A stretch of DNA of 36,797 bases from Caldisericaceae bacterium (lineage in GTDB: Bacteria; Caldisericota; Caldisericia; Caldisericales; Caldisericaceae). The DNA lies in assembly GCA_036574215.1 (NCBI GenBank), contig JAINCR010000012.1, forward strand, positions 1 through 36,797. The letters run 5' to 3'. The notes below the pieces were generated by a model. It did no database searches, was not told the origin of the DNA, and saw only the letters and a list, made by a program, of their open reading frames with translations. The position numbers and the translations under genes were made by a program. Below, piece by piece: positions 14,841-36,797 of this stretch (position 1 is the first letter of the stretch; the number at the start of each line of letters is the position of its first letter).

Positions 14841-17800
14841 ATGAAAAAGTTGGTATCTTTACTTTTAGTAATTGCTCTTTTAATTCCACTTTTACAAGGA
14901 TGTTCGTCTAAACCAAAACCTCTCAATGTTATAATAGTTTGGCATAATCATCAGCCATTTTATAAAGATCCTTTAACAAATGAATTTATTCTTCCATGGG
15001 TAAGGTTGCATGGAGCAAAAGATTATTACCGTATGCCGTATATTGTGTCGCAATTTCCGGACTTACACATAACTTTTGATTTATCGGGAAGTTTGATTTC
15101 CCAAATTATCGATTACCAAAATGGTCAAATCGACGAAAACCTTAAATTGAGTAAGATTATTCCTGAGGACTTATCTACTTCCCAAAAAATTAAGATATTA
15201 TCAATCCCTGGTGGATTTTTTGATATTAACTGGGACCATATTGTGAAAAAAGTCCCATTATTTAATGATATACTTGAAAAAAGAAACACTGCTTTTAAAG
15301 ATTCTTCAGATAATCCTGAAATAGCAGTGCAAAAATTATCACCACAAGATTACTTGAACTTACAAACCCTTTTTAACCTCTTCTGGCTAGATATCGATTT
15401 TATTAAAAATGATAAAGATTTATCTCTCTTACTTGATAAGGCATACAAAAAGAATAATTTTACAATTTCTGACAGAGATTTAGTTTTAAAAAAACAAATG
15501 GAAATTATTAATAAGATTTTTGGGATATACAAAGACTTATCTTCTAAAAACCTAATTGAACTAGTTTCAACTCCTTATGCTCATCCTATATCACCTTTAC
15601 TTGTTGATTTTGGATTGAGTATTGATTTATCAAAACAACTTGATAAATCTAATGAGGTTTTTTACAAGGTTTTTGGTTTTTATCCAAAAGGAATTTGGGC
15701 TTCCGAATGTGCCATTAATGACGAAACCCTAAAGATATTCTCAGAAAAAGGTCTTAAGTGGACTATTTCTGATGTTGATAACTTACCACAGCTCGGAGTA
15801 AATAAAGATGATCCGCTTGAAAAGTATGTCCCTTATGAGATAAATGGTGTTACAGTTTTCTTTAGAGATAAATACCTTTCAGATGGAATTGGTTTTCGTT
15901 ATTCAGGGCAAAGTGTAAACGAAGCAGTTTCTGATGTAGAAAATACTTTAAGGAGCATTCAATCTCTTAACAAAAATGGTTCTTTAGTTTATACAATTGC
16001 TCTTGATGGTGAAAACGCATGGGAGTATTACAATAACGATGGCAACGATTTCTTAAAAGCTTTTTACGGTAAACTCTCCTCTCTTCAAAAAGAAGGTGTA
16101 ATAAAAGTTGTTACCCCCTCAGAATACTTATCGAAATTTAAACCTAAAAGTGTTTCCGAGCATACAGTTACCGTCCTTGATCTAAGCGGCAAAGATATTT
16201 CGAATATTAACTCTTATTCTAACTTACCAACAAAAGAGGTCCAAGGTTACTTTGGAGAGTCAAGCTGGATAAACCCAACTCTTGACACATGGATTGGTGA
16301 GCCTCAAGAAAACGTTGCTTGGAAATGGCTTATTGATGCCCATAAGACCTTTAATGAAAGTAAAAATTCCTTAAGTGAAGAAAACCTTAATAAAGCAAAT
16401 GATTTTCTTTTAATAGCAGAGGGTTCTGATTGGTTTTGGTGGTATGGAAGTGACCAAAGTTCAGGTAACGATAGAGGGTTTGATAGACTTTATAAATTGT
16501 ATTTAGGTGGACTTTATAAAACATTAGGCAAACAAATCCCTGATTACTTATTTGGAAACTTTTTCCCAGACGGAGAGCCTTATTCAATGTCTGAAGTAAG
16601 TCTCAAGGAAAATGAGCCAAAAAGCATAGATATTCCCTCCCAAAATATTAAGGCAAGTATTAATTTTGATGGGAAAAATATTTCTATAAGTTTTCCTTTA
16701 AAAGACTACATAGTTGCAGTTTACTACGGCAAGACTCTGAATACATTTTTAAGAGAGCAGAAAAAACCTATTGATTTTTCAATAGACTACTTTCCTTTTG
16801 ATAAAGATAGTATAGGTATGCCTGTTGATTTTGAAAGTTATTTTGTTAACGGTAAAACTAGTATAGATACAACCAACCTCAATTTGGATAAACTTTATAT
16901 TTCTTTAGTTTCGTTAAAAGATGGTAAGTTGGTGTCTTTCACGGAACCTTTAAGGATTAAGCTTCCTGTTAAAATTTCAGGTGCACTTGTAGGAGAACTA
17001 TACGATGAAGCAAATGATGATAATGGTCCTGGAACTTATACCTATCCATTGAATGATGTTTTCAAGAATAGGGGACATCTTTTTGATTTAATCTCATTTA
17101 AGATGTTTGATAACGGAGAAAATTATCTATTACAATATGAAATGGGTTCCGTTGGTGGTAATCCGTGGAATGGGCCAAATGGTTTTTCCTTCCAGATCAT
17201 TGAAACTTATTTTGATGTGAAAGATGGTGGAAAAACTGTAACAATCGATCCTAAGGGACCAAAAGTGAACATAGATCCAAACCATCCTTGGGATTTAGCA
17301 ATTCGTGTTGCAGGTTGGTCTTATGGTAATTTCATTATGGATGCATCGGATAATGTCTACCAAGGAGAATTAGGCATATCCGTTGACAATGAGAAAAATA
17401 TTATTAACGTAATTTTACCTAAAAAATATCTAAATATAAGTAGCTCTTATAAGCCATATATTACAATTCTCTCTGGTAACCAAGATGGATATGGAGAGGG
17501 TTATTTTAGAGCAATTCAACAGACTGCAAGTGAATGGGCAAGTGGTGGAGGAAACCCTGAAGCGATAAACGAGGGAATTCTACCAAAAGTTTTTGATATT
17601 TTTGTGCCTAGAGGAATGACTCAAAAAGATATTTTAACTTCGTATGATGTGAAGAATAAGACATTTGCAACTGTGCCGATGCTTCCACTTTCAACAGCTC
17701 TCAAAACACCTAATTTAATAGGAACTTATGAACTTAATCTTCCGAAAATTATGCTACCTTTAACTGAGTTCGAGGTAAGTATAGATATAAAAAATAATGG

Positions 17801-18500
17801 AAAAGGTGCACAGAAAGATTTAGAAGGAAACGAATTGGTTTTAAAACTCCCCAAATATGTTGATTTTATTAGTGCTGAAGCAAGCAAGGGAAAGGTTTCT
17901 TTTGCTAATTCTCTTGTATCATTTAACGGGAGCTTAGAAAGTGGCGAAACAGTTAAATTAAAGTTGAGAATGAAGCTATCCAAAGATGTTCCAAATGCAT
18001 ATAAAGAAGTATTTAATGGAACATTGAATTACGATGGGGATGGTGTTAAGAAAAATACTGCTAAAAATGAGTTTGAGTTTTATTTCTTTACTTCCTACAA
18101 AGTTGAAGTTAATCTTCCTTTTGAAGGTAATTATCTTTTTAGAAACAAAGAAAAAATTCCTTTTACCATTAAAAATATCGTAACTCATTATGATGAAAAG
18201 ATAAAAGATTATACAACTTCTTTAGAAGATTTAAGTAAGGCATTAGGAATGGATTATAACTTCGATGGAAAAAAACTCACTCTTGTCTTCTTTGAAAACA
18301 AATACGAGCATTGGGTAGGTCAAAACAAGTCATTACTTAATGGAAACGCTGTGCCGTTGGTTGAAGGTAATAGTAGTATTGCAAGTTATGTTGAGAACGG
18401 TAACATAGTTTTTCCACTTACTGCACTTGCAAAATCTTTTGGTTTTAAGTATAACATAGACAATGGAAATAAAAATTTAAATATAACATATTTACCGTAG
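14841..18500 (+). CDS. Cell-surface GH57 amylopullulanase-like lipoprotein
   Basis: A 1219-residue secreted lipoprotein. A signal peptide ends in the lipobox LLQGC, with acylated C21. The GH57 catalytic region (about 28-450) has HNHQP at 35-39, nucleophile E289 in WASEC and acid/base D389 in LDGENAWE, so the active site looks intact. After a linker comes a glucodextranase-C-terminal-like domain (about 709-960), as in archaeal type II pullulanases. A beta domain of the CARDB/DUF11 kind (about 972-1085) and a copper-amine-oxidase N-terminal-like domain (about 1087-1219) follow. The enzyme probably cleaves alpha-1,4 and alpha-1,6 bonds of starch, glycogen or pullulan outside the cytoplasm. AAAGGAGG six bases before the ATG sets the start. 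A ROK regulator follows. Confidence 0.9.
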   Translation: MKKLVSLLLVIALLIPLLQGCSSKPKPLNVIIVWHNHQPFYKDPLTNEFILPWVRLHGAKDYYRMPYIVSQFPDLHITFDLSGSLISQIIDYQNGQIDENLKLSKIIPEDLSTSQKIKILSIPGGFFDINWDHIVKKVPLFNDILEKRNTAFKDSSDNPEIAVQKLSPQDYLNLQTLFNLFWLDIDFIKNDKDLSLLLDKAYKKNNFTISDRDLVLKKQMEIINKIFGIYKDLSSKNLIELVSTPYAHPISPLLVDFGLSIDLSKQLDKSNEVFYKVFGFYPKGIWASECAINDETLKIFSEKGLKWTISDVDNLPQLGVNKDDPLEKYVPYEINGVTVFFRDKYLSDGIGFRYSGQSVNEAVSDVENTLRSIQSLNKNGSLVYTIALDGENAWEYYNNDGNDFLKAFYGKLSSLQKEGVIKVVTPSEYLSKFKPKSVSEHTVTVLDLSGKDISNINSYSNLPTKEVQGYFGESSWINPTLDTWIGEPQENVAWKWLIDAHKTFNESKNSLSEENLNKANDFLLIAEGSDWFWWYGSDQSSGNDRGFDRLYKLYLGGLYKTLGKQIPDYLFGNFFPDGEPYSMSEVSLKENEPKSIDIPSQNIKASINFDGKNISISFPLKDYIVAVYYGKTLNTFLREQKKPIDFSIDYFPFDKDSIGMPVDFESYFVNGKTSIDTTNLNLDKLYISLVSLKDGKLVSFTEPLRIKLPVKISGALVGELYDEANDDNGPGTYTYPLNDVFKNRGHLFDLISFKMFDNGENYLLQYEMGSVGGNPWNGPNGFSFQIIETYFDVKDGGKTVTIDPKGPKVNIDPNHPWDLAIRVAGWSYGNFIMDASDNVYQGELGISVDNEKNIINVILPKKYLNISSSYKPYITILSGNQDGYGEGYFRAIQQTASEWASGGGNPEAINEGILPKVFDIFVPRGMTQKDILTSYDVKNKTFATVPMLPLSTALKTPNLIGTYELNLPKIMLPLTEFEVSIDIKNNGKGAQKDLEGNELVLKLPKYVDFISAEASKGKVSFANSLVSFNGSLESGETVKLKLRMKLSKDVPNAYKEVFNGTLNYDGDGVKKNTAKNEFEFYFFTSYKVEVNLPFEGNYLFRNKEKIPFTIKNIVTHYDEKIKDYTTSLEDLSKALGMDYNFDGKKLTLVFFENKYEHWVGQNKSLLNGNAVPLVEGNSSIASYVENGNIVFPLTALAKSFGFKYNIDNGNKNLNITYLP

Positions 18501-27237: not shown

Positions 27238-28489
27238 TTTTTCTTTCTATTTCTCCGCCTAATTTTTTTATTTTTTTAATATACTCCTCATACCCCCTAT
27301 CGATATGTATTGGATCAAATACTTTGCTTATGCCCTTGGCAGATAGACTTGCTAAGACCAAGGACATACCGCCTCTTAAATCCGTTGCTGTTGTAATCGA
27401 AGATTTTAATTCTGATACACCTGTAATAAAGGCTGACTTATCTTCAAGTCTAATGTTTGCACCCATCTTTATAAGGTCATCTACAATTCTAAATCTATTT
27501 TCAAAGACCGTTTCTGTTATAACACTTGTTCCTTTTGAAATTGTTAATAATGTAAGCATTTGAGATTGCACATCTGTGGGAAACCCTGGGTATGGCATGG
27601 TTTTGATGGTGGTTCCACTGAATTGGTCCTTGTAGGTAATAGTTATTGTGTCATCGGTAACTTTTAAATCGAGGCCAATTTCTTTTAGTTTCATTATGAC
27701 CGCCTCAAGGTGCTTTGGCTGGACTTTTTTTACTGTGATTTTTCCTTTTGTAATTGCACCTAAGATGAGATAAGTTGAAGCTTCAATTCGATCAGGGATT
27801 ATCGCATATTCAATAGGTTTAAGCTTTTTACCACCCTCAATTTTAATAGTATTACCAGAACCATTTAATGTAATTTTTGCTCCGGCCTTGTTCAAAAAAT
27901 CTATCATATCTTTAATCTCAGGTTCTCTTGCGGCATTTTCGATTACTGTTTCTCCTTCAGCAAAAAGAGCAGCAAGGATAATGTTTTCTGTTGCACCAAC
28001 ACTTGGATAATCCAGAAAAATTCTTGTTCCTTTTAATTTTTTTGGGACATGAGCCTTTAGTATACCGTGTTCCCATGTGATTTCTGCGCCTAAACTCTTC
28101 AACCCTTTAATGTGTTGATCAATAGGTCGCTTTCCAATATTACAACCACCCAAATTTGGAATGGAAGCTTCTCTTTCCTTTGCAATAAAAGCCCCTAAAA
28201 AGGTTTGCGAACCTCTAATATTCGCAGCTTCTTCTGGGGGTATTTCGGTTCTGAAATTGGAACTTGCGTCTATTTCGATTTCATTGCCTTCCATTTTAAC
28301 ATAGACACCAATTTTTCTAATTTGGTCTATGAAGCTTGTTACATCGATAATATTTGGTGCGTTAGAGATTTTACACTTTCCTTCAATGACTAAACAAGAA
28401 GCTAATATAGGAAAGGTAGCATTTTTAGAGCCAGAGATGTCTACATTCCCTCTAAGGGGTTTACCACCATTTATTTCAAGATATTCCAT
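27230..28489 (-). CDS. murA: UDP-N-acetylglucosamine 1-carboxyvinyltransferase MurA
   Basis: A 419-residue EPSP-synthase-fold enzyme making the first committed peptidoglycan precursor from UDP-GlcNAc and PEP in the cytoplasm. K22-N23 (SGSKNA) binds substrate; the catalytic loop has C116 (GGCNIGKRP), so it should be fosfomycin-sensitive by target sequence. The ATG at 28489 follows GGAGG (28499-28495) by 5 bases; the in-frame GTG at 28501 overlaps that site and is rejected. Its start overlaps the end of wecB by 14 bases. Both enzymes draw on UDP-GlcNAc, so the operon sits at the branch between wall and surface glycan. Confidence 0.96.
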   Translation of the reverse strand: MEYLEINGGKPLRGNVDISGSKNATFPILASCLVIEGKCKISNAPNIIDVTSFIDQIRKIGVYVKMEGNEIEIDASSNFRTEIPPEEAANIRGSQTFLGAFIAKEREASIPNLGGCNIGKRPIDQHIKGLKSLGAEITWEHGILKAHVPKKLKGTRIFLDYPSVGATENIILAALFAEGETVIENAAREPEIKDMIDFLNKAGAKITLNGSGNTIKIEGGKKLKPIEYAIIPDRIEASTYLILGAITKGKITVKKVQPKHLEAVIMKLKEIGLDLKVTDDTITITYKDQFSGTTIKTMPYPGFPTDVQSQMLTLLTISKGTSVITETVFENRFRIVDDLIKMGANIRLEDKSAFITGVSELKSSITTATDLRGGMSLVLASLSAKGISKVFDPIHIDRGYEEYIKKIKKLGGEIERKNA

Positions 28490-29603
28490 CTGTTCCTCCA
28501 CTTAGTAAGTATTCGTGAACTATTTTTGCAATTCTTCTACCTGCAAGTCCATCACCAAAAGGGTTTCTTACATTTGCTACAGAATTTCTCTCATTTTCAT
28601 TATTAATTAGGTTTTCAACTTCTATTACGATTTTTTCAAAGTTTGTTCCAATAAGTTTAACAACTCCACTTTCTATTCCTTCTGGTCTTTCTGTTGTTTC
28701 TCTTAAGAGAAGCACGGGTTTTTTTAGAGTTGGAGCTTCTTCTTGGATTCCTCCGGAATCAGTTAAGATTATTTCTGCTTTTGAAAGAAGCTTAATAAAA
28801 GTTATGTAATCCATGGGTTCAACGAGTTTAACGTTTTCGTTGTTTTGTAAAATATTATTTACAACGTTTCTTACAACAGGGTTTTTATGAACGGAAAAAA
28901 TTATCTTGTATTCGTTACCGTATTTTTTGCTTATGTAATCAATTGCTTTACATATGTTTTCCATTGGTTGTCCCCAGTTTTCTCTTCTGTGGGCTGTTAC
29001 TACAATGAATTTTTTATTTTCCTCAATAGGCAAATCAGTTTTAGCATCTTTAGAAATTATTTCTAAAAGAGAATCAACTATAGTATTTCCTGTTACAAAA
29101 ATTTTAAATTCTTTAACTCCTTCTTTTATTAAATTTAACTTAGTTTGTTCAGTTGGAGCAAAAAATAAATCAGCAAGTGCGTCTGTAAGTTCCCTATTCA
29201 TTTCTTCTGGAAACGGAGAATATTTGTTGTAGGTTCTTAACCCTGCTTCTACATGTCCAATAGGGATTTTTTCATAAAAAGAAGCAAGAGCTGAAGCAAA
29301 AGTAGTTGTTGTGTCTCCATGAACGAGTGTTAGATTTGGTTTTTCTTTTTCAAAAATCTCTTTCATTCCGTTTAGCACTTTTACAGTGATTTTTGTGAGG
29401 GTTTGTCTGTCTTCCATTACATTAAGGTCGTAGTCAACTTTAATTTCAAACATTTCAAGAACTTGTTTGAGCATTTCTTGGTGCTGGCTTGTAATTATTA
29501 CTTTTGTTTCAATATCATCAAATTTATTAAGCTCTTTATACACTGGGTACATCTTTATTGCTTCTGGTCTTGTTCCAAAAACCAAAAAAACCTTCTTTTT
29601 CAT
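28476..29603 (-). CDS. wecB: UDP-N-acetylglucosamine 2-epimerase (non-hydrolysing)
   Basis: A 375-residue GT-B-fold enzyme interconverting UDP-GlcNAc and UDP-ManNAc. Signature stretches are FGTRPEAIKMYP at the N-terminus, HGDTTTTFA, HVEAGLRT, FPEEMNRELTDALADLFFAPT, TAHRRENWG and the C-terminal LTDSGGIQEEAP. The ATG at 29603 is one base after the stop of the wecA-like gene; a TTG 15 bases earlier is less family-like. It supplies UDP-ManNAc for the GT26 enzyme and, through the wecC-like dehydrogenase, UDP-ManNAcA. Also called MnaA in Gram-positive bacteria. Confidence 0.95.
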   Translation of the reverse strand: MKKKVFLVFGTRPEAIKMYPVYKELNKFDDIETKVIITSQHQEMLKQVLEMFEIKVDYDLNVMEDRQTLTKITVKVLNGMKEIFEKEKPNLTLVHGDTTTTFASALASFYEKIPIGHVEAGLRTYNKYSPFPEEMNRELTDALADLFFAPTEQTKLNLIKEGVKEFKIFVTGNTIVDSLLEIISKDAKTDLPIEENKKFIVVTAHRRENWGQPMENICKAIDYISKKYGNEYKIIFSVHKNPVVRNVVNNILQNNENVKLVEPMDYITFIKLLSKAEIILTDSGGIQEEAPTLKKPVLLLRETTERPEGIESGVVKLIGTNFEKIVIEVENLINNENERNSVANVRNPFGDGLAGRRIAKIVHEYLLSGGTDGIS

Positions 29604-29604
29604 C

Positions 29605-30579
29605 TCATTTTGCCCCAAAAGTTATTATAGCACCTGTAATCGATAACACGAAGGTAATAAAGTAGTATATTAACGCAATAGTTTTTTGAGATAGTCCTTT
29701 TTTAAGTAGTCTATAGTGTATGTGTTCGTTATCGTATTTAAAAGGAGACCCTCCATGTATGATTCTTCTTACAATTGATGTGAATACTTCAACAATCGGA
29801 ATTCCCAACGCAAGAATTGGTAAAGCAACTACAATAAAAGTATTGATTTTATAGGCACCGATGATTGAAATTATACTAAGCATAAAACCAAGAAGTCCTG
29901 CACCTGAATCTCCAAGAAAGACACGTGCAGGATTAAAATTATAAATGAGAAATGCAAGAAGTGCACCTGAGAGCCCTATAAGAATTAATGCTAAATTTAA
30001 ATTTCCCTTATACATTGCCGTAATTGCCAAAAAGAAAGAAGCAATGAGTGAGACTCCAGAAGCAAGTCCATCAAGGCCATCGATTATATTTATAGCGTTA
30101 ATTAAACCAACGATCCAAAGAACGGTGAATACGTCACCTAATATACCAAGTTTTAGCATGTTGTCTGTGAATGGAATTGAAATCTCCCGAAACTTCGTCC
30201 CTGTAAGAACAACAACTATTGCAGAGATGAACTGTATTAAAAATTTTTGCCTAACTGTAAGTCCCTTTTTGTCGTCGAATAGTAAACCAAAAAATAAGAT
30301 TGTTGCTCCAGTTATTATTCCCAAAAGTTGCTTACTGAATTGTTGTACAAAAAGAAAAAGGATAATTATGGTAATATAGATTGCAATACCGCCAGAACGA
30401 GGAATTGGCTCTTTATGGATTTTTTCTCTTGACTCTTTATTCGGAAGATCAATGATGCCGAACTTTCTTCCAATTATAATTGAAAGTGGTGTAAGAAAAG
30501 AAGAAACAAAGAAACCAAGTAAGAAAATGTAGGATATTGTAAAAGAGTTTTTATTCAAGAAAATGATTAGATTTTTCAT
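29605..30579 (-). CDS. wecA: Undecaprenyl-phosphate GlcNAc-1-phosphate transferase (WecA/TagO family)
   Basis: A 324-residue polytopic membrane enzyme of the MraY/WecA/TagO family, with about ten or eleven helices. It transfers a sugar-1-phosphate to undecaprenyl phosphate on the cytoplasmic face, the first step of a lipid-linked glycan. Motifs are LFDDKKGL, NIIDGLDGLA, FLGDSGA and the cytoplasmic loop HIHYRLL with preceding His-rich residues. The HIHYRLL-type loop favours WecA/TagO (UDP-GlcNAc) over MraY (UDP-MurNAc-pentapeptide). It overlaps upp by four bases and is followed at once by wecB. Substrate is inferred from family and neighbours. Confidence 0.92.
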   Translation of the reverse strand: MKNLIIFLNKNSFTISYIFLLGFFVSSFLTPLSIIIGRKFGIIDLPNKESREKIHKEPIPRSGGIAIYITIIILFLFVQQFSKQLLGIITGATILFFGLLFDDKKGLTVRQKFLIQFISAIVVVLTGTKFREISIPFTDNMLKLGILGDVFTVLWIVGLINAINIIDGLDGLASGVSLIASFFLAITAMYKGNLNLALILIGLSGALLAFLIYNFNPARVFLGDSGAGLLGFMLSIISIIGAYKINTFIVVALPILALGIPIVEVFTSIVRRIIHGGSPFKYDNEHIHYRLLKKGLSQKTIALIYYFITFVLSITGAIITFGAK

Positions 30580-32471: not shown

Positions 32472-33137
32472 TTACTCTAATGCTCTTGCTATTGCAATAA
32501 AATAAATTAAGTTATTTTTATTTCTTTTACTAATTGTATCACATATTTCTTTTGCTGTTGAGCCTGTTGTAAACACATCATCAACTATAAGTATATCTTT
32601 ATTAAGGTTAGCATCAACTCTAAAGGCGTTTTTAATATTGGTTTCTCTCTCTTGTTTTGAGAGTTTGGATTGCCTTTCAGTTTCTCTAATTTTGTATAAT
32701 CCTTTAAAAATAGGTTTATTGGTTTTTCTTGCGATTTCTTTAGCAATTAAGTATGTTTGGTTGTATCCTCTTTCGCTTTCTTCTCTTTTTGTCATTGGAA
32801 CATAGCCTATGGTCTCAAAATGGATATTTTGTTTCTCCGTAAACTGAATAATTTGTTCTGATAGAAATTTAGCAATAACTTTATAATTTTGAAATTTGAA
32901 TTTAGTTATTACTGTTTTTATAACTCCAGTGTAGTTTGTCATTCCAAAATAGTATATCATGTCTTTGTGAAAAATGAGAGGGTATTTATTGTATTCAATT
33001 TTACTTGCGCAATCGTTGCAAATAAAACTATCATAAAGCTTTTTTCCACAGACTACGCAATGCGCTGGTGCAACAAACTCCTCAAAAAAATCTCTAATGT
33101 AAGTATTTAAGAAATGCTTCAAAATTCCTTTTTGCAT
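32472..33137 (-). CDS. comF: ComF family phosphoribosyltransferase-like protein
   Basis: A 221-residue protein with a four-cysteine zinc motif at the N-terminus (C27, C30, C40, C43) and a C-terminal phosphoribosyltransferase fold carrying the PRPP motif [13 protein letters not shown] near residue 190. [15 protein letters not shown] is typical of ComF. In naturally competent bacteria ComF is needed for transformation; elsewhere the function is unclear. The ATG at 33137 lies 44 bases inside csaB with only a weak AAAG ribosome-binding site, so the start is uncertain; TTG 33122 is an alternative. Confidence 0.88.
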
Positions 33138-34110
33138 TTTCTTTAAGTTGTGGTAGTTTATTTTCGATTAAACTTGTAATCTCTTTTTGTTGCTTTACAA
33201 AATCCGTAAATACATTTGCAAAATTAGATAAAGTTAAATCCTTAATTTCAATACCAGTTAATCCTATAAATTTGCTTAAATTTTTAACCTTGTCATCGTA
33301 AAAAATGGGTAAGACAGGTTTCTTAAGCATAATTGAAAAAACAATGGAATGGTATCTTGTCCCAACTACAAACTTTGCGTTTTTCAAAACTGAAAATGCT
33401 TCTTCAAAGGTTTTTGGAACAAATACTGGGAATTTTGTTTTTTCGTTAATTTTTTTGGCTAATCCCAAGTCTACTGCAGGATAAAATGGCACAAGAATTG
33501 TTTCATAGTGCGTTTTATAATGTATAAAACGTGCAATATCTGCTATTTCTTCAATATCAATATTTTCGTTTCCCTTTATCTGCAAAACATTGTAGTTTTC
33601 TTCAATGGGTAAAGTTGGTAAAGTACTGAACTCATAGAGGAAAGCAAGATCAGAAGTTACAAAGATTTCGTTTTTTAAACCACACTCGAGAAGTAAATTT
33701 TTTGATTCCTCGTCTCTTACGGTTATTAAGTCAACACCTGTTAAGGCATGTTTAACTATCTTTTTGCTGATGTTTTTCTTTAATGGGCCAATCCCTTGTG
33801 CGAAAATAAAGGTTTTTTTATTTGCTATCTTTGAAAGATTTATAAGCGTTGTGTAGTATAAAAGGCTTTTTAAACTTGTCTTATCTTGTAGAAGTCCACC
33901 TCCTCCTGAAATAAAGGCGTTAACTTCTTTTAAACTTTTTAGAATTTCTACAATATTAGTTCTATTAATTTCGTTTTCATTCTTTTTTTCTTTAACAAGA
34001 AAGAGAGCGATTATATTATTCTTTTTTAGTTCCCTATTTATTACCTCTTTTATTATTTCATCTCCTAAATTTCCAAAACCAAAGTATCCTGAGACTAAGA
34101 CATTTTTCAA
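33094..34110 (-). CDS. csaB: Polysaccharide pyruvyltransferase (CsaB-like)
   Basis: A 338-residue GT-B-like enzyme of the polysaccharide pyruvyltransferase family. The N-terminal SGYFGFGNLGDEII, the glycine-rich FISGGGGLLQD, FAQGIGPL, RDEES and the later GTRYHSIVFS are the CsaB pattern. In Bacillus and Paenibacillus CsaB adds a pyruvate ketal from PEP to ManNAc of the secondary cell-wall polymer, the ligand of SLH domains. The start is TTG 34110 with GGGGAGG at 34116-34122; it overlaps the GT26 stop as TTGA. Being directly after a ManNAc-transferase gene strongly supports a lipid-linked ManNAc acceptor. No SLH-domain protein is in the window. Confidence 0.9.
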   Translation of the reverse strand: MKNVLVSGYFGFGNLGDEIIKEVINRELKKNNIIALFLVKEKKNENEINRTNIVEILKSLKEVNAFISGGGGLLQDKTSLKSLLYYTTLINLSKIANKKTFIFAQGIGPLKKNISKKIVKHALTGVDLITVRDEESKNLLLECGLKNEIFVTSDLAFLYEFSTLPTLPIEENYNVLQIKGNENIDIEEIADIARFIHYKTHYETILVPFYPAVDLGLAKKINEKTKFPVFVPKTFEEAFSVLKNAKFVVGTRYHSIVFSIMLKKPVLPIFYDDKVKNLSKFIGLTGIEIKDLTLSNFANVFTDFVKQQKEITSLIENKLPQLKENAKRNFEAFLKYLH

Positions 34111-35543
34111 TCTAGCCTCCCCAGAAAAATCCTAACGGTAAGTTCAACAATATTAAGTAGTCTGCCAATCCTTTTCGGTTGGACGATTGTCCTATAAAGC
34201 CACTCAATTCCAAGTTTTCTAACAAGTACAGGAGCTCTTTTAACTTTTCCACTCCATACATCAAAGGAGCCACCTATTCCGATATTTACGGGTATATCAA
34301 GATCTTTATTCTTTTCAATCCATTTTTCTTGTTTTATCCCACCCATTCCCACAAAAAGTATGTGTGGCCTGCTTTCAAAGATGTGGTTTCTTATTTCCGC
34401 ATCTTCCGTAAAATAGCCATTATGGAAACCTACAATGTTTAATTTCGGGAACTGTTTTGTTATATTGTTGACTGCCTTTTGTATAACTTCTTCTTCTGCT
34501 CCCAAGAAGAACACTCTATACCCTTCAATTTCTGAAACTCTTAGAACTTCCCAGGCAAACTCAATACCGGGAATTCTGTTGGTGATTCTCTTTCCGAATC
34601 TTCTTACCGCCATTATTACGCCAATTCCATCGGGGATCACAAGATCTGCCTTTTTTAAAATCTCCAAAAATTCTTTATCTTTAATGGCCCTTGAAAGCAT
34701 TTCACCATTTATTGTAACTACGATATGATAGTTGCCTTCTTTTATAAAACTTTTTAAAATTTCAATATTTTCATCAAGTGTCCTATTGGAGATTTTTACG
34801 CCTATTAAATCCGCTTCTTTTTTACTAGGAATTTTCCTTTTATAGGCTTCTAGTAAAAATCTTGGGAGACTTAAAATACGGGGTAAGCGTTTTGGATCAA
34901 GTAAAAACCTATACAGCCATTCAAGGCCAAGTTTTTGCACAATTGCCGGTGCTCTTTTAAATTCTTTTGAGAAAACATTGAAAGATCCGCCAACACCCAT
35001 AGCAAATTTCACATTGAGGTTATTCAAATTCCTGTAGATAAACTTTTCTTGTTTGGGTGATCCCATACCGATAAATAAAATGTCAGGTTTTGATTCTCTT
35101 ATTATTGAAACAACTTTACCTTCATCTTCAAAATATCCATTATGAAAACCAACTATTTTTAAATTTGGATATTCGTTTTTAATGTTTTCTATTGCTTTTT
35201 GAAGGCTTTCTTCTTTTGCCCCAAGGAAGAATACTGAATACCCTTTTTGTTCTGCAAGAGCAAGTAGTGAAGAAAATAAATCAATACCAGTGATCCTTTC
35301 CTTAATTTTTATTCCTTTAAAAAGCGAGGATGCAAAAATAATACCAACTCCATCAACAAAATTTAAGTTAGAATGTTTTAAGATTTCCAATATCTCCTTA
35401 TCTTTATATGCTTTTAGTGCCTTTTCTGGGTTAACCGCAACTGCATAAGAGGGTAAGCCTTTGGTAATTAAGTTATCAATGTGTTTTAATGCCTCTTCAA
35501 ATGTAATATTATCTATAGGGAGATCAAAAATTTCTATTCTCAT
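34107..35543 (-). CDS. Tandem GT26 glycosyltransferase (two WecG/TagA/CpsF domains in one chain)
   Basis: A 478-residue protein made of two complete GT26 domains, about residues 1-238 and 241-478, offset by 240 residues. GT26 enzymes (TagA, WecG) transfer ManNAc or ManNAcA from UDP onto GlcNAc-PP-undecaprenol. Both halves hold GYxVFFLGA, VGFHNGYF (131-138 and 371-378), GGSFxVxS, KRAP and a basic C-terminal appendage (LEWLYR or IEWLYR with PKR) that in TagA contacts the membrane. The presumed catalytic Asp is D64 and D305. The TxNPE motif differs: A36-V-N-P-E in half one, T277-I-N-G-E in half two. Each half may have its own donor, or one may be inactive. It overlaps the wecC-like and csaB-like genes by 4 bases. 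Confidence 0.93.
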   Translation of the reverse strand: MRIEIFDLPIDNITFEEALKHIDNLITKGLPSYAVAVNPEKALKAYKDKEILEILKHSNLNFVDGVGIIFASSLFKGIKIKERITGIDLFSSLLALAEQKGYSVFFLGAKEESLQKAIENIKNEYPNLKIVGFHNGYFEDEGKVVSIIRESKPDILFIGMGSPKQEKFIYRNLNNLNVKFAMGVGGSFNVFSKEFKRAPAIVQKLGLEWLYRFLLDPKRLPRILSLPRFLLEAYKRKIPSKKEADLIGVKISNRTLDENIEILKSFIKEGNYHIVVTINGEMLSRAIKDKEFLEILKKADLVIPDGIGVIMAVRRFGKRITNRIPGIEFAWEVLRVSEIEGYRVFFLGAEEEVIQKAVNNITKQFPKLNIVGFHNGYFTEDAEIRNHIFESRPHILFVGMGGIKQEKWIEKNKDLDIPVNIGIGGSFDVWSGKVKRAPVLVRKLGIEWLYRTIVQPKRIGRLLNIVELTVRIFLGRLD

Positions 35544-36797
35544 ATTTTTATGTATACTGCTCCAAGTTTGGTTGCTTGTTGCATGTCTATTTTTTGCTTT
35601 GCATCAAAAATAATTGGTTGGTTATTCAATAAATGAAACCAATTTTGGATATTATAATCTATTTCGTCTTGGATAATGGGTATTACTACAACATCAGCAC
35701 CAATAAGTGCTTCTTTTAAAGAGTTAACTTTATCTTCGAATACTCCACTTACTTTTGGATCGAAGAATCTTACCTTTGCTCCTTTTGACTTAAGAATTTC
35801 TTTTAGCATAACCCCAGGACTTTCAGATATGTCTGAAGAATTATCTTTCATAGCAATGCCAAGGAATACTATGTATGAATTTTCTATTTTTTTACCTAAA
35901 TTGTTTAGAGTATTTTCTATTCTATTAGCAATTTCTTTTGGCCTTAAATCGTTTACTTCTCTAGCTGTATGAAGAAGTGGTAATTCTATGCTCAATTTAT
36001 CGGAAGTATAAAAGATATATTTAGACGCAAATGGGATGCAATGTCCTCCAACTCCTATTCCTGGTGTTAATAGTTTTACTCTTCGGTGTGTGTTTGCTAC
36101 TTTTATTACTTCCATTGTATCTACTCCAATTGCATTTGTAAGCTTTCCTAATTCGTTAACAAGCGCTATATTTACATCTCTTGAAGCATTCTCTATTAAT
36201 TTTGATATTTCAACTACTTCAGGAGTGCTTGCTTCAAACACATTTGGATTAATAATTGACAATAATTCTTTAGCTTTTTTTGTTCCTTCATTATTTATAC
36301 CTGCTACAGCAACAGGCATTGTCTGGAATTCTTCAAATGCCTGTCCTTCTGCGATTCTCTCAGAAGAATATGCAAGAAGAAAATCTTCGTTAACCTTCAT
36401 ACTACTTACATTTTCCAAAATAGGCAAAGCGACATTCCTTGTTGTTAAAGGTGGAACAGTTGATCTAATTAATACCAAACTATCTTTTGTAAGATACCTT
36501 CCTATACTTTTCATAGCATCTTCAAAAACTTCCATCTTGATCTGTTCATTTTCAATTGGTATGCCAACGGTTACAATAATATCTTTAATATCTTTTAAAC
36601 CTTCTTCGTATGAATATGTTGGAACAAATAAACCTTTCTTTAGACTTTCTTGTAAAATTTCTTCTATATGAATTCCTTTGTATACTTCATATACGTGCGT
36701 TTTTCCATTTTTTAATTTTTCAATGTAATTCTTGTTAATGTCAATTCCGTATACTTTTACTCCGTAGAGTGTGTAAGTAAGAGCAAGGGGTAATCCT
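35540..36797 (-). CDS. wecC: UDP-ManNAc dehydrogenase-like (WecC family), 5' end outside window
   Basis: The frame is open to the right edge, so the gene is cut there; visible codons run from 36796 to the stop at 35540-35542. The protein begins within the NAD-binding fold (GLPLALTY, then VYGIDIN), continues through RSTVPPLTTRN and reaches the catalytic cysteine in GVGGHCIP (Cys codon 36038-36040). The C-terminal UDP-sugar-binding domain ends near GAVYIKI. The family oxidises a UDP-sugar C6 to a carboxylate using NAD. WecC (UDP-ManNAc to UDP-ManNAcA) fits best given wecB and GT26 in the same operon; UDP-glucose or UDP-GlcNAc dehydrogenase are alternatives. An internal ATG at 36535 is not the real start. 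Confidence 0.9.
   Translation of the reverse strand, partial: GLPLALTYTLYGVKVYGIDINKNYIEKLKNGKTHVYEVYKGIHIEEILQESLKKGLFVPTYSYEEGLKDIKDIIVTVGIPIENEQIKMEVFEDAMKSIGRYLTKDSLVLIRSTVPPLTTRNVALPILENVSSMKVNEDFLLAYSSERIAEGQAFEEFQTMPVAVAGINNEGTKKAKELLSIINPNVFEASTPEVVEISKLIENASRDVNIALVNELGKLTNAIGVDTMEVIKVANTHRRVKLLTPGIGVGGHCIPFASKYIFYTSDKLSIELPLLHTAREVNDLRPKEIANRIENTLNNLGKKIENSYIVFLGIAMKDNSSDISESPGVMLKEILKSKGAKVRFFDPKVSGVFEDKVNSLKEALIGADVVVIPIIQDEIDYNIQNWFHLLNNQPIIFDAKQKIDMQQATKLGAVYIKI

Follow-up and report, generated by a model that had tools for sequence, protein, structure and literature searches.

A conserved two-domain GT26 protein of Caldisericota that may pair a WecG-like with a TagA-like glycosyltransferase

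GT26 glycosyltransferases are usually single-domain proteins of ~240 amino acids, an architecture that is common in the family but not defining. In Paenibacillus alvei, TagA and CsaB carry out the ManNAc and pyruvate steps on GlcNAc-PP-lipid in vitro (PMC6030368). E. coli WecG (RffM), which functions in the enterobacterial common antigen pathway, transfers ManNAcA from UDP-ManNAcA onto GlcNAc-PP-Und (PMC12212991). In TagA, T37 has been modeled in contact with the donor sugar, at the C6 hydroxyl according to the legend of Figure 4 and at C5 according to the text; a T37A mutant retains about 27% of the activity (0.41 of 1.5 µM/min) and a D65A mutant about 3% (PMC6493773).

The Caldisericota protein described here departs from the single-domain norm in that it contains two full GT26 domains. 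With TagA/TarA of Thermoanaerobacter italicus and P. alvei it shares the fold, the active-site residues, and the C-terminal membrane appendage, and its second half also has T37. However, TagA consists of one domain of about 240 amino acids, while the TagA-type domain here is the second half of a fusion. As for P. alvei TagA, CsaB is a neighbor. The predicted TagO, epimerase, TagA, and CsaB functions of the P. alvei pathway are all present, in Caldisericota within one operon, which adds WecC and a WecG-type half, neither of which is part of the P. alvei pathway as described. WecG shares A37, K42, and S164 (TagA numbering) with the first half, and its pathway also includes WecB and WecC. Nevertheless, WecG is single-domain and only about 32% identical to the first half, and its pathway lacks the CsaB step for which the Caldisericota operon has a gene.

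We analyzed a 36,797-nucleotide stretch (the window) of contig JAINCR010000012.1 from a Caldisericaceae bacterium (assembly GCA_036574215.1); the contig belongs to a 1.31 Mb genome. An initial annotation of the window, made from the letters alone, had described one frame encoding two full GT26 domains that are offset by exactly 240 residues and share VGFHNGYF, GGSF, KRAP, and WLYR blocks. The frame was confirmed on the minus strand, from an ATG start to a stop at 34107, and the Pfam model PF03808 matched its product in two stretches (404.9 bits in all; E values of 1.8e-62 and 1.1e-59 as separate matches to the halves). The two halves align over 231 residues with 44% identity (E = 1e-68). All four blocks occur in both halves. 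The offset of 240 holds for VGFHNGYF (residues 131/371), as it does for FFLGA (105/345) and KQEK (164/404), but is 239 for GGSF (185/424), KRAP (196/435), and WLYR (209/448), because of a one-residue deletion.

A comparison of a predicted structure with TagA had also been suggested. The AlphaFold2 model of the whole fused protein (mean pLDDT 87.9) contains two GT26 folds whose elements, including the C-terminal helices, follow the same order in both halves. One half superposes on the TagA crystal structures 5wb4 and 7mpk with a TM score of about 0.94 and an rmsd of 1.2–1.7 Å. The predicted model thus has the GT-E fold of TagA, with the structure match made over one half.

Family models name the protein differently depending on how much of it is scored. 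Half 1 alone scored 188.5 bits with the TarA model and 160.5 with the WecG model; for half 2 the values were 200.4 and 134.8. Neither half alone reached an equivalog cut-off. Since half 1 lies below the cut-off of 323 bits of the curated WecG model NF002980, we call it WecG-like rather than WecG, and since half 2 lies below the cut-off of 350 bits of the curated TarA model NF041710, we call it TagA-like rather than TarA. The whole protein does pass the NCBIfam TarA cut-off of 350, with 382.9 bits, because the two domain scores add up. Coordinates of the features are given in Table 1.

Table 1. Features of the window with bearing on the fused GT26 gene
Feature	Position in window	Strand	Basis
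Two-domain GT26 protein, 478 aa	34107..35543	-	ORF; two PF03808 domains
Half 1 (residues 1-240), putative WecG-type GT26 domain	34824..35543	-	A37/K42/S164 signature as in E. coli WecG; beside WecG in best tree
Half 2 (residues 241-478), putative TagA-type GT26 domain	34107..34823	-	T37 and D191; groups with csaB-adjacent single-domain Caldisericota GT26
Nucleotide-sugar 6-dehydrogenase, WecC-like	35540..36796	-	NCBIfam TIGR03026, 302.8 bits, over cut-off; 5′ end cut by contig edge
CsaB polysaccharide pyruvyl transferase	33094..34110	-	TIGR03609, 227.6 bits, cut-off 213.1 passed
TagO/WecA-type GlcNAc-1-phosphate transferase	29605..30579	-	Best NCBIfam model ECA_wecA, 138.4 bits, under cut-off
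WecB UDP-GlcNAc 2-epimerase (makes UDP-ManNAc)	28476..29618	-	TIGR00236, 492.5 bits, over cut-off

The intact fusion was present in 26 of 54 Caldisericota genomes, from two families, f1 and f3, with 13 genomes each. A join of two genes by a sequencing error, one of the findings that the initial annotation had named as refuting its reading, or by an assembly error is therefore ruled out. Other Caldisericota families have different arrangements. In family f2 the two GT26 domains are encoded by separate, overlapping genes whose order matches the halves of the fusion; families f4 and f7 have a single GT26 gene beside csaB; and families f5 and f6 have a single GT26 domain inside a GT4-GT26-CsaB protein of about 1000 amino acids. 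The f5/f6 protein is similar to the fusion in that GT26 is joined to likely pathway partners, but the partners are GT4 and CsaB rather than a second GT26, and WecC is unlinked. These proteins (L127:1337-4441, L116:5499-8588, and L118:5410-8358) probably carry out three wall-polymer steps per chain.

We also searched for two-domain GT26 proteins outside the phylum. Among the matches listed from 647 genomes of three other phyla (249, 250, and 148 genomes; one phylum was Bacillota), no protein with two intact GT26 domains was found. The one other double case encountered was a Lachnospiraceae protein in which a decayed GT26 domain precedes a VanZ membrane domain, with an intact GT26 domain after it. 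Such proteins, of about 680 amino acids, occur at L096:7986-10022 and L086:1198-3258 and also at L091 and L097; their decayed domain, from which N39, D65, and the C-terminal arginines are gone, is possibly a regulatory pseudo-glycosyltransferase. A literature search found no description of a two-domain GT26 protein. As far as we could find, then, the fusion is a real, conserved, and apparently undescribed architecture within a known enzyme family.

The genes around the fusion follow the minus-strand order WecC-like dehydrogenase, GT26-GT26, CsaB, ComF, GlyA, Upp, TagO/WecA, WecB, and MurA. In all 26 genomes the gene immediately upstream of the fusion is WecC-like. The best subfamily models for the WecC-like gene of the window are UDP-ManNAc dehydrogenases, with scores under their cut-offs, and it passes only the general dehydrogenase model. 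Of the 22 double-GT26 loci examined, 19 have CsaB immediately downstream. At the other three, one contig ends and two (G006 and G016) show no CsaB; electron-transfer-flavoprotein and MoeA genes take its place in G016. Of these two neighbors, WecC thus shows the stricter association with the fusion. Caldisericota with one GT26 carry a WecC-like gene too, at another genomic location, and among the single-domain relatives a half-2-like GT26 is paired with CsaB while WecC is unlinked. SLH-domain proteins, which usually partner pyruvylated ManNAc polymers (PMC6030368, PMC10628300), are encoded in all 54 Caldisericota genomes.

The f3 loci (L131, L151, and others) retain the order WecC, double GT26, CsaB. 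Their WecC and CsaB diverge more from those of f1 than the fused GT26 does, and f3 is placed inside f1 in the half-1 tree and beside f1 in the half-2 tree, which could reflect gene transfer or an in-place replacement. Elsewhere in the window, a plus-strand gene (14841-18500), followed by a ROK-family gene, encodes a possibly surface-anchored protein of 1219 amino acids that combines a GH57 domain with a C-terminal module of the glucodextranase type.

The initial annotation regarded the active-site motifs as divergent: A36 in half 1 where a usual T-x-N-P-E motif has threonine, with D64 kept, and a glycine for proline in half 2, with T277 and D305 kept. The residues are as it stated, with the glycine at position 280. 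However, the T-x-N-P-E pattern is not invariant: TagA has T37-P-N39-A-E41, and the glycine of half 2 is therefore ordinary variation. The part of the claim that stands concerns TagA position 37, and a lysine at TagA position 42 had gone unmentioned. In half 1 the key residues are A36 (TagA T37), K41 (TagA 42), D64 (TagA D65), R83, and Q165-E166; in half 2 they are T277 (T37), D305 (D65), R323, and Q405-E406. In TagA numbering, A37, K42, and S164 are common to all 22 half-1 sequences compared from f1 and f3 and to all 15 WecG-like sequences. K42 is absent from 78 Thr37 sequences from elsewhere and from 40 from Caldisericota, which comprise half-2 and single-gene sequences. T37 and D191 occur in all half-2 sequences. 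Judged from sequence, the threonine/alanine difference at position 37 is, together with Lys42, a subfamily mark.

Since T37 is modeled in contact with the donor sugar, its replacement fits the change at C6 from CH2OH to COOH that distinguishes the two donors, and loss of the threonine with gain of a nearby lysine would be in keeping with a carboxylate at C6 of the donor. Ala37 alone is no proof of this, since Lachnospiraceae enzymes have A37 without K42 and without WecC nearby. The half-1 homologue of family f2 has P37 with K42, and WecC is unlinked there. Of 17 A37+K42 loci outside Caldisericota, 16 have a WecC-like gene no more than about 9 kb away, although flanks were unequal and most of these loci come from relatives of the E. 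coli pathway, which makes the counts non-independent; P values computed from them overstate the association. WecC lies within 7 kb at nine of the 17 and at about 7.4 kb at the E. coli locus, and was seen at six further loci with a 10 kb flank (one a weak match of 134 bits); at the remaining locus, L042, on a short contig, it was not found. By comparison, WecC was found at one of 78 T37 loci outside Caldisericota, within the available flanks, and at one of nine loci without A37 at the same 10 kb flank. Two Pseudomonadota GT26 genes (L182:5676-6647 and L187:3891-4757) with the motif QHVALNVAK, and hence A37 and K42, have WecC and WecB as immediate neighbors, whereas almost none of the relatives with V37 have WecC; this is a minor, separate hint that A37 accompanies a uronic-acid donor.

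From signatures, gene linkage, and phylogeny, which are all sequence-based, we think it fairly probable that two GT26 enzymes of different subfamilies, each catalytically complete, are naturally fused in this protein, with half 2 a UDP-ManNAc transferase and half 1 a UDP-ManNAcA transferase. The initial annotation is supported in part: the donors ManNAc and ManNAcA were the first of its two alternatives. In the pathway that we propose, the TagO/WecA-type enzyme of the operon, as expected from its family, would make GlcNAc-PP-lipid, and WecB would make UDP-ManNAc, part of which the adjacent WecC is expected to oxidize to UDP-ManNAcA. At the membrane, half 2 would add ManNAc and half 1 ManNAcA to lipid-linked GlcNAc, and CsaB would pyruvylate the ManNAc unit. 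These steps would yield the repeat or linkage unit for a secondary cell wall polymer, acidic and pyruvylated, to which SLH-domain proteins bind. We infer the donor choice of each half, the activity of both, and the identity of the polymer.

How the fusion arose and whether both halves are enzymes bear on this proposal. For deep branching, we set aside a quick first tree, against which held-together trees scored better, and used a careful tree. There, WecG and half 1 split from all other sequences (support 81/93), and half 2 grouped with the csaB-linked single-domain GT26 of Caldisericota and with Melainabacteria (support 86/94). These splits and the topology tests favor, but do not prove, the joining of two subfamilies. 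Because the two GT26 genes of f2 are still separate, overlapping and in matching order, the fusion most likely arose from two neighboring genes, and it was probably made once. The initial annotation had instead called the gene tandem-duplicated. Duplication in place of one GT26 gene inside Caldisericota would agree with the likeness of the halves in order and length, and a clade of half 1 and half 2 alone was not rejected (p-AU = 0.226). However, the halves are apart in the best tree, a clade of all Caldisericota GT26 was rejected (p-AU = 0.016), and half 1 has the WecG signature, all of which make this origin doubtful. The suggestion that only one half is catalytic, with the other serving as a regulatory or membrane-holding pseudo-enzyme, is not supported. 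Half 1 does lack T37 and carries asparagine in place of D191, a ribose-contacting residue, but the rest of its active site is intact: the equivalents of TagA N39, D65, R83, Q167, and E168, as well as R214, R221, and R224 of the C-terminal appendage, are present in both halves of all complete copies. Since TagA T37A keeps part of its activity, alanine at this position does not mean a dead enzyme. Half 1 has also evolved no faster than half 2, with mean identities of 63.9% versus 59.7% within f1 and 81.0% versus 81.9% within f3. A GT26 half that has truly decayed, as in the Lachnospiraceae fusions, has lost residues that are kept here. Thus, neither half looks dead or regulatory, and we consider a pseudo-enzyme most improbable.

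If both halves are active, they could nonetheless transfer the same sugar, ManNAc, with the fusion raising local activity or fixing a TagA-like dimer and Ala37 of half 1 reflecting drift. The residual activity of TagA T37A, the dimers that TagA forms, and the better score of half 1 alone with the TarA model are consistent with this. But A37, K42, and S164 are fixed in all f1 and f3 half-1 copies and match WecG, the WecC gene that adjoins the fusion in every genome would have no evident user in the operon, and the halves are about 40% identical in every fused gene, with no sign of homogenization. We therefore view transfer of one sugar by both halves as unlikely. With two donors, whether both sugars are added to one chain in sequence or to separate GlcNAc-PP-lipids is a guess that could about equally fall either way. 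We know of no GT26 enzyme shown to use ManNAc(A)-GlcNAc-PP-lipid as acceptor. Sequential action would need an acceptor new to the family, since both known GT26 types use GlcNAc-PP-lipid (PMC6030368, PMC12212991). This shared acceptor suits the alternative in which each half draws on a common GlcNAc-PP-lipid pool to make its own lipid-linked disaccharide, destined for two different polymers or two unit types, as does the half-2-like GT26 that is already paired with CsaB, away from WecC, in single-domain Caldisericota. Set against such parallel use are the gene order, which places all steps in one operon, and the lack of an obvious gain from fusing competing enzymes, except for a fixed ratio; we hold it possible but somewhat unlikely. 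The boldest reading, to which we give rather less than even odds, is that one polypeptide passes a lipid-linked sugar between a WecG-type and a TagA-type site, in either direction, such that one half accepts ManNAc(A)-GlcNAc-PP-lipid; the outcome would be a ManNAcA/pyruvyl-ManNAc unit for an SLH-binding wall polymer of a new type.

For automatic naming, the protein is a warning, since summed domain scores would lead to the whole chain being called TarA. For the GT26 family, the fused halves offer a natural side-by-side pair for testing the choice between ManNAc and ManNAcA donors, with TagA positions 37 and 42 as candidate donor-choice positions. For Caldisericota, a little-studied phylum in which the envelope type is not yet settled, the fusion predicts what the wall polymer may be composed of.
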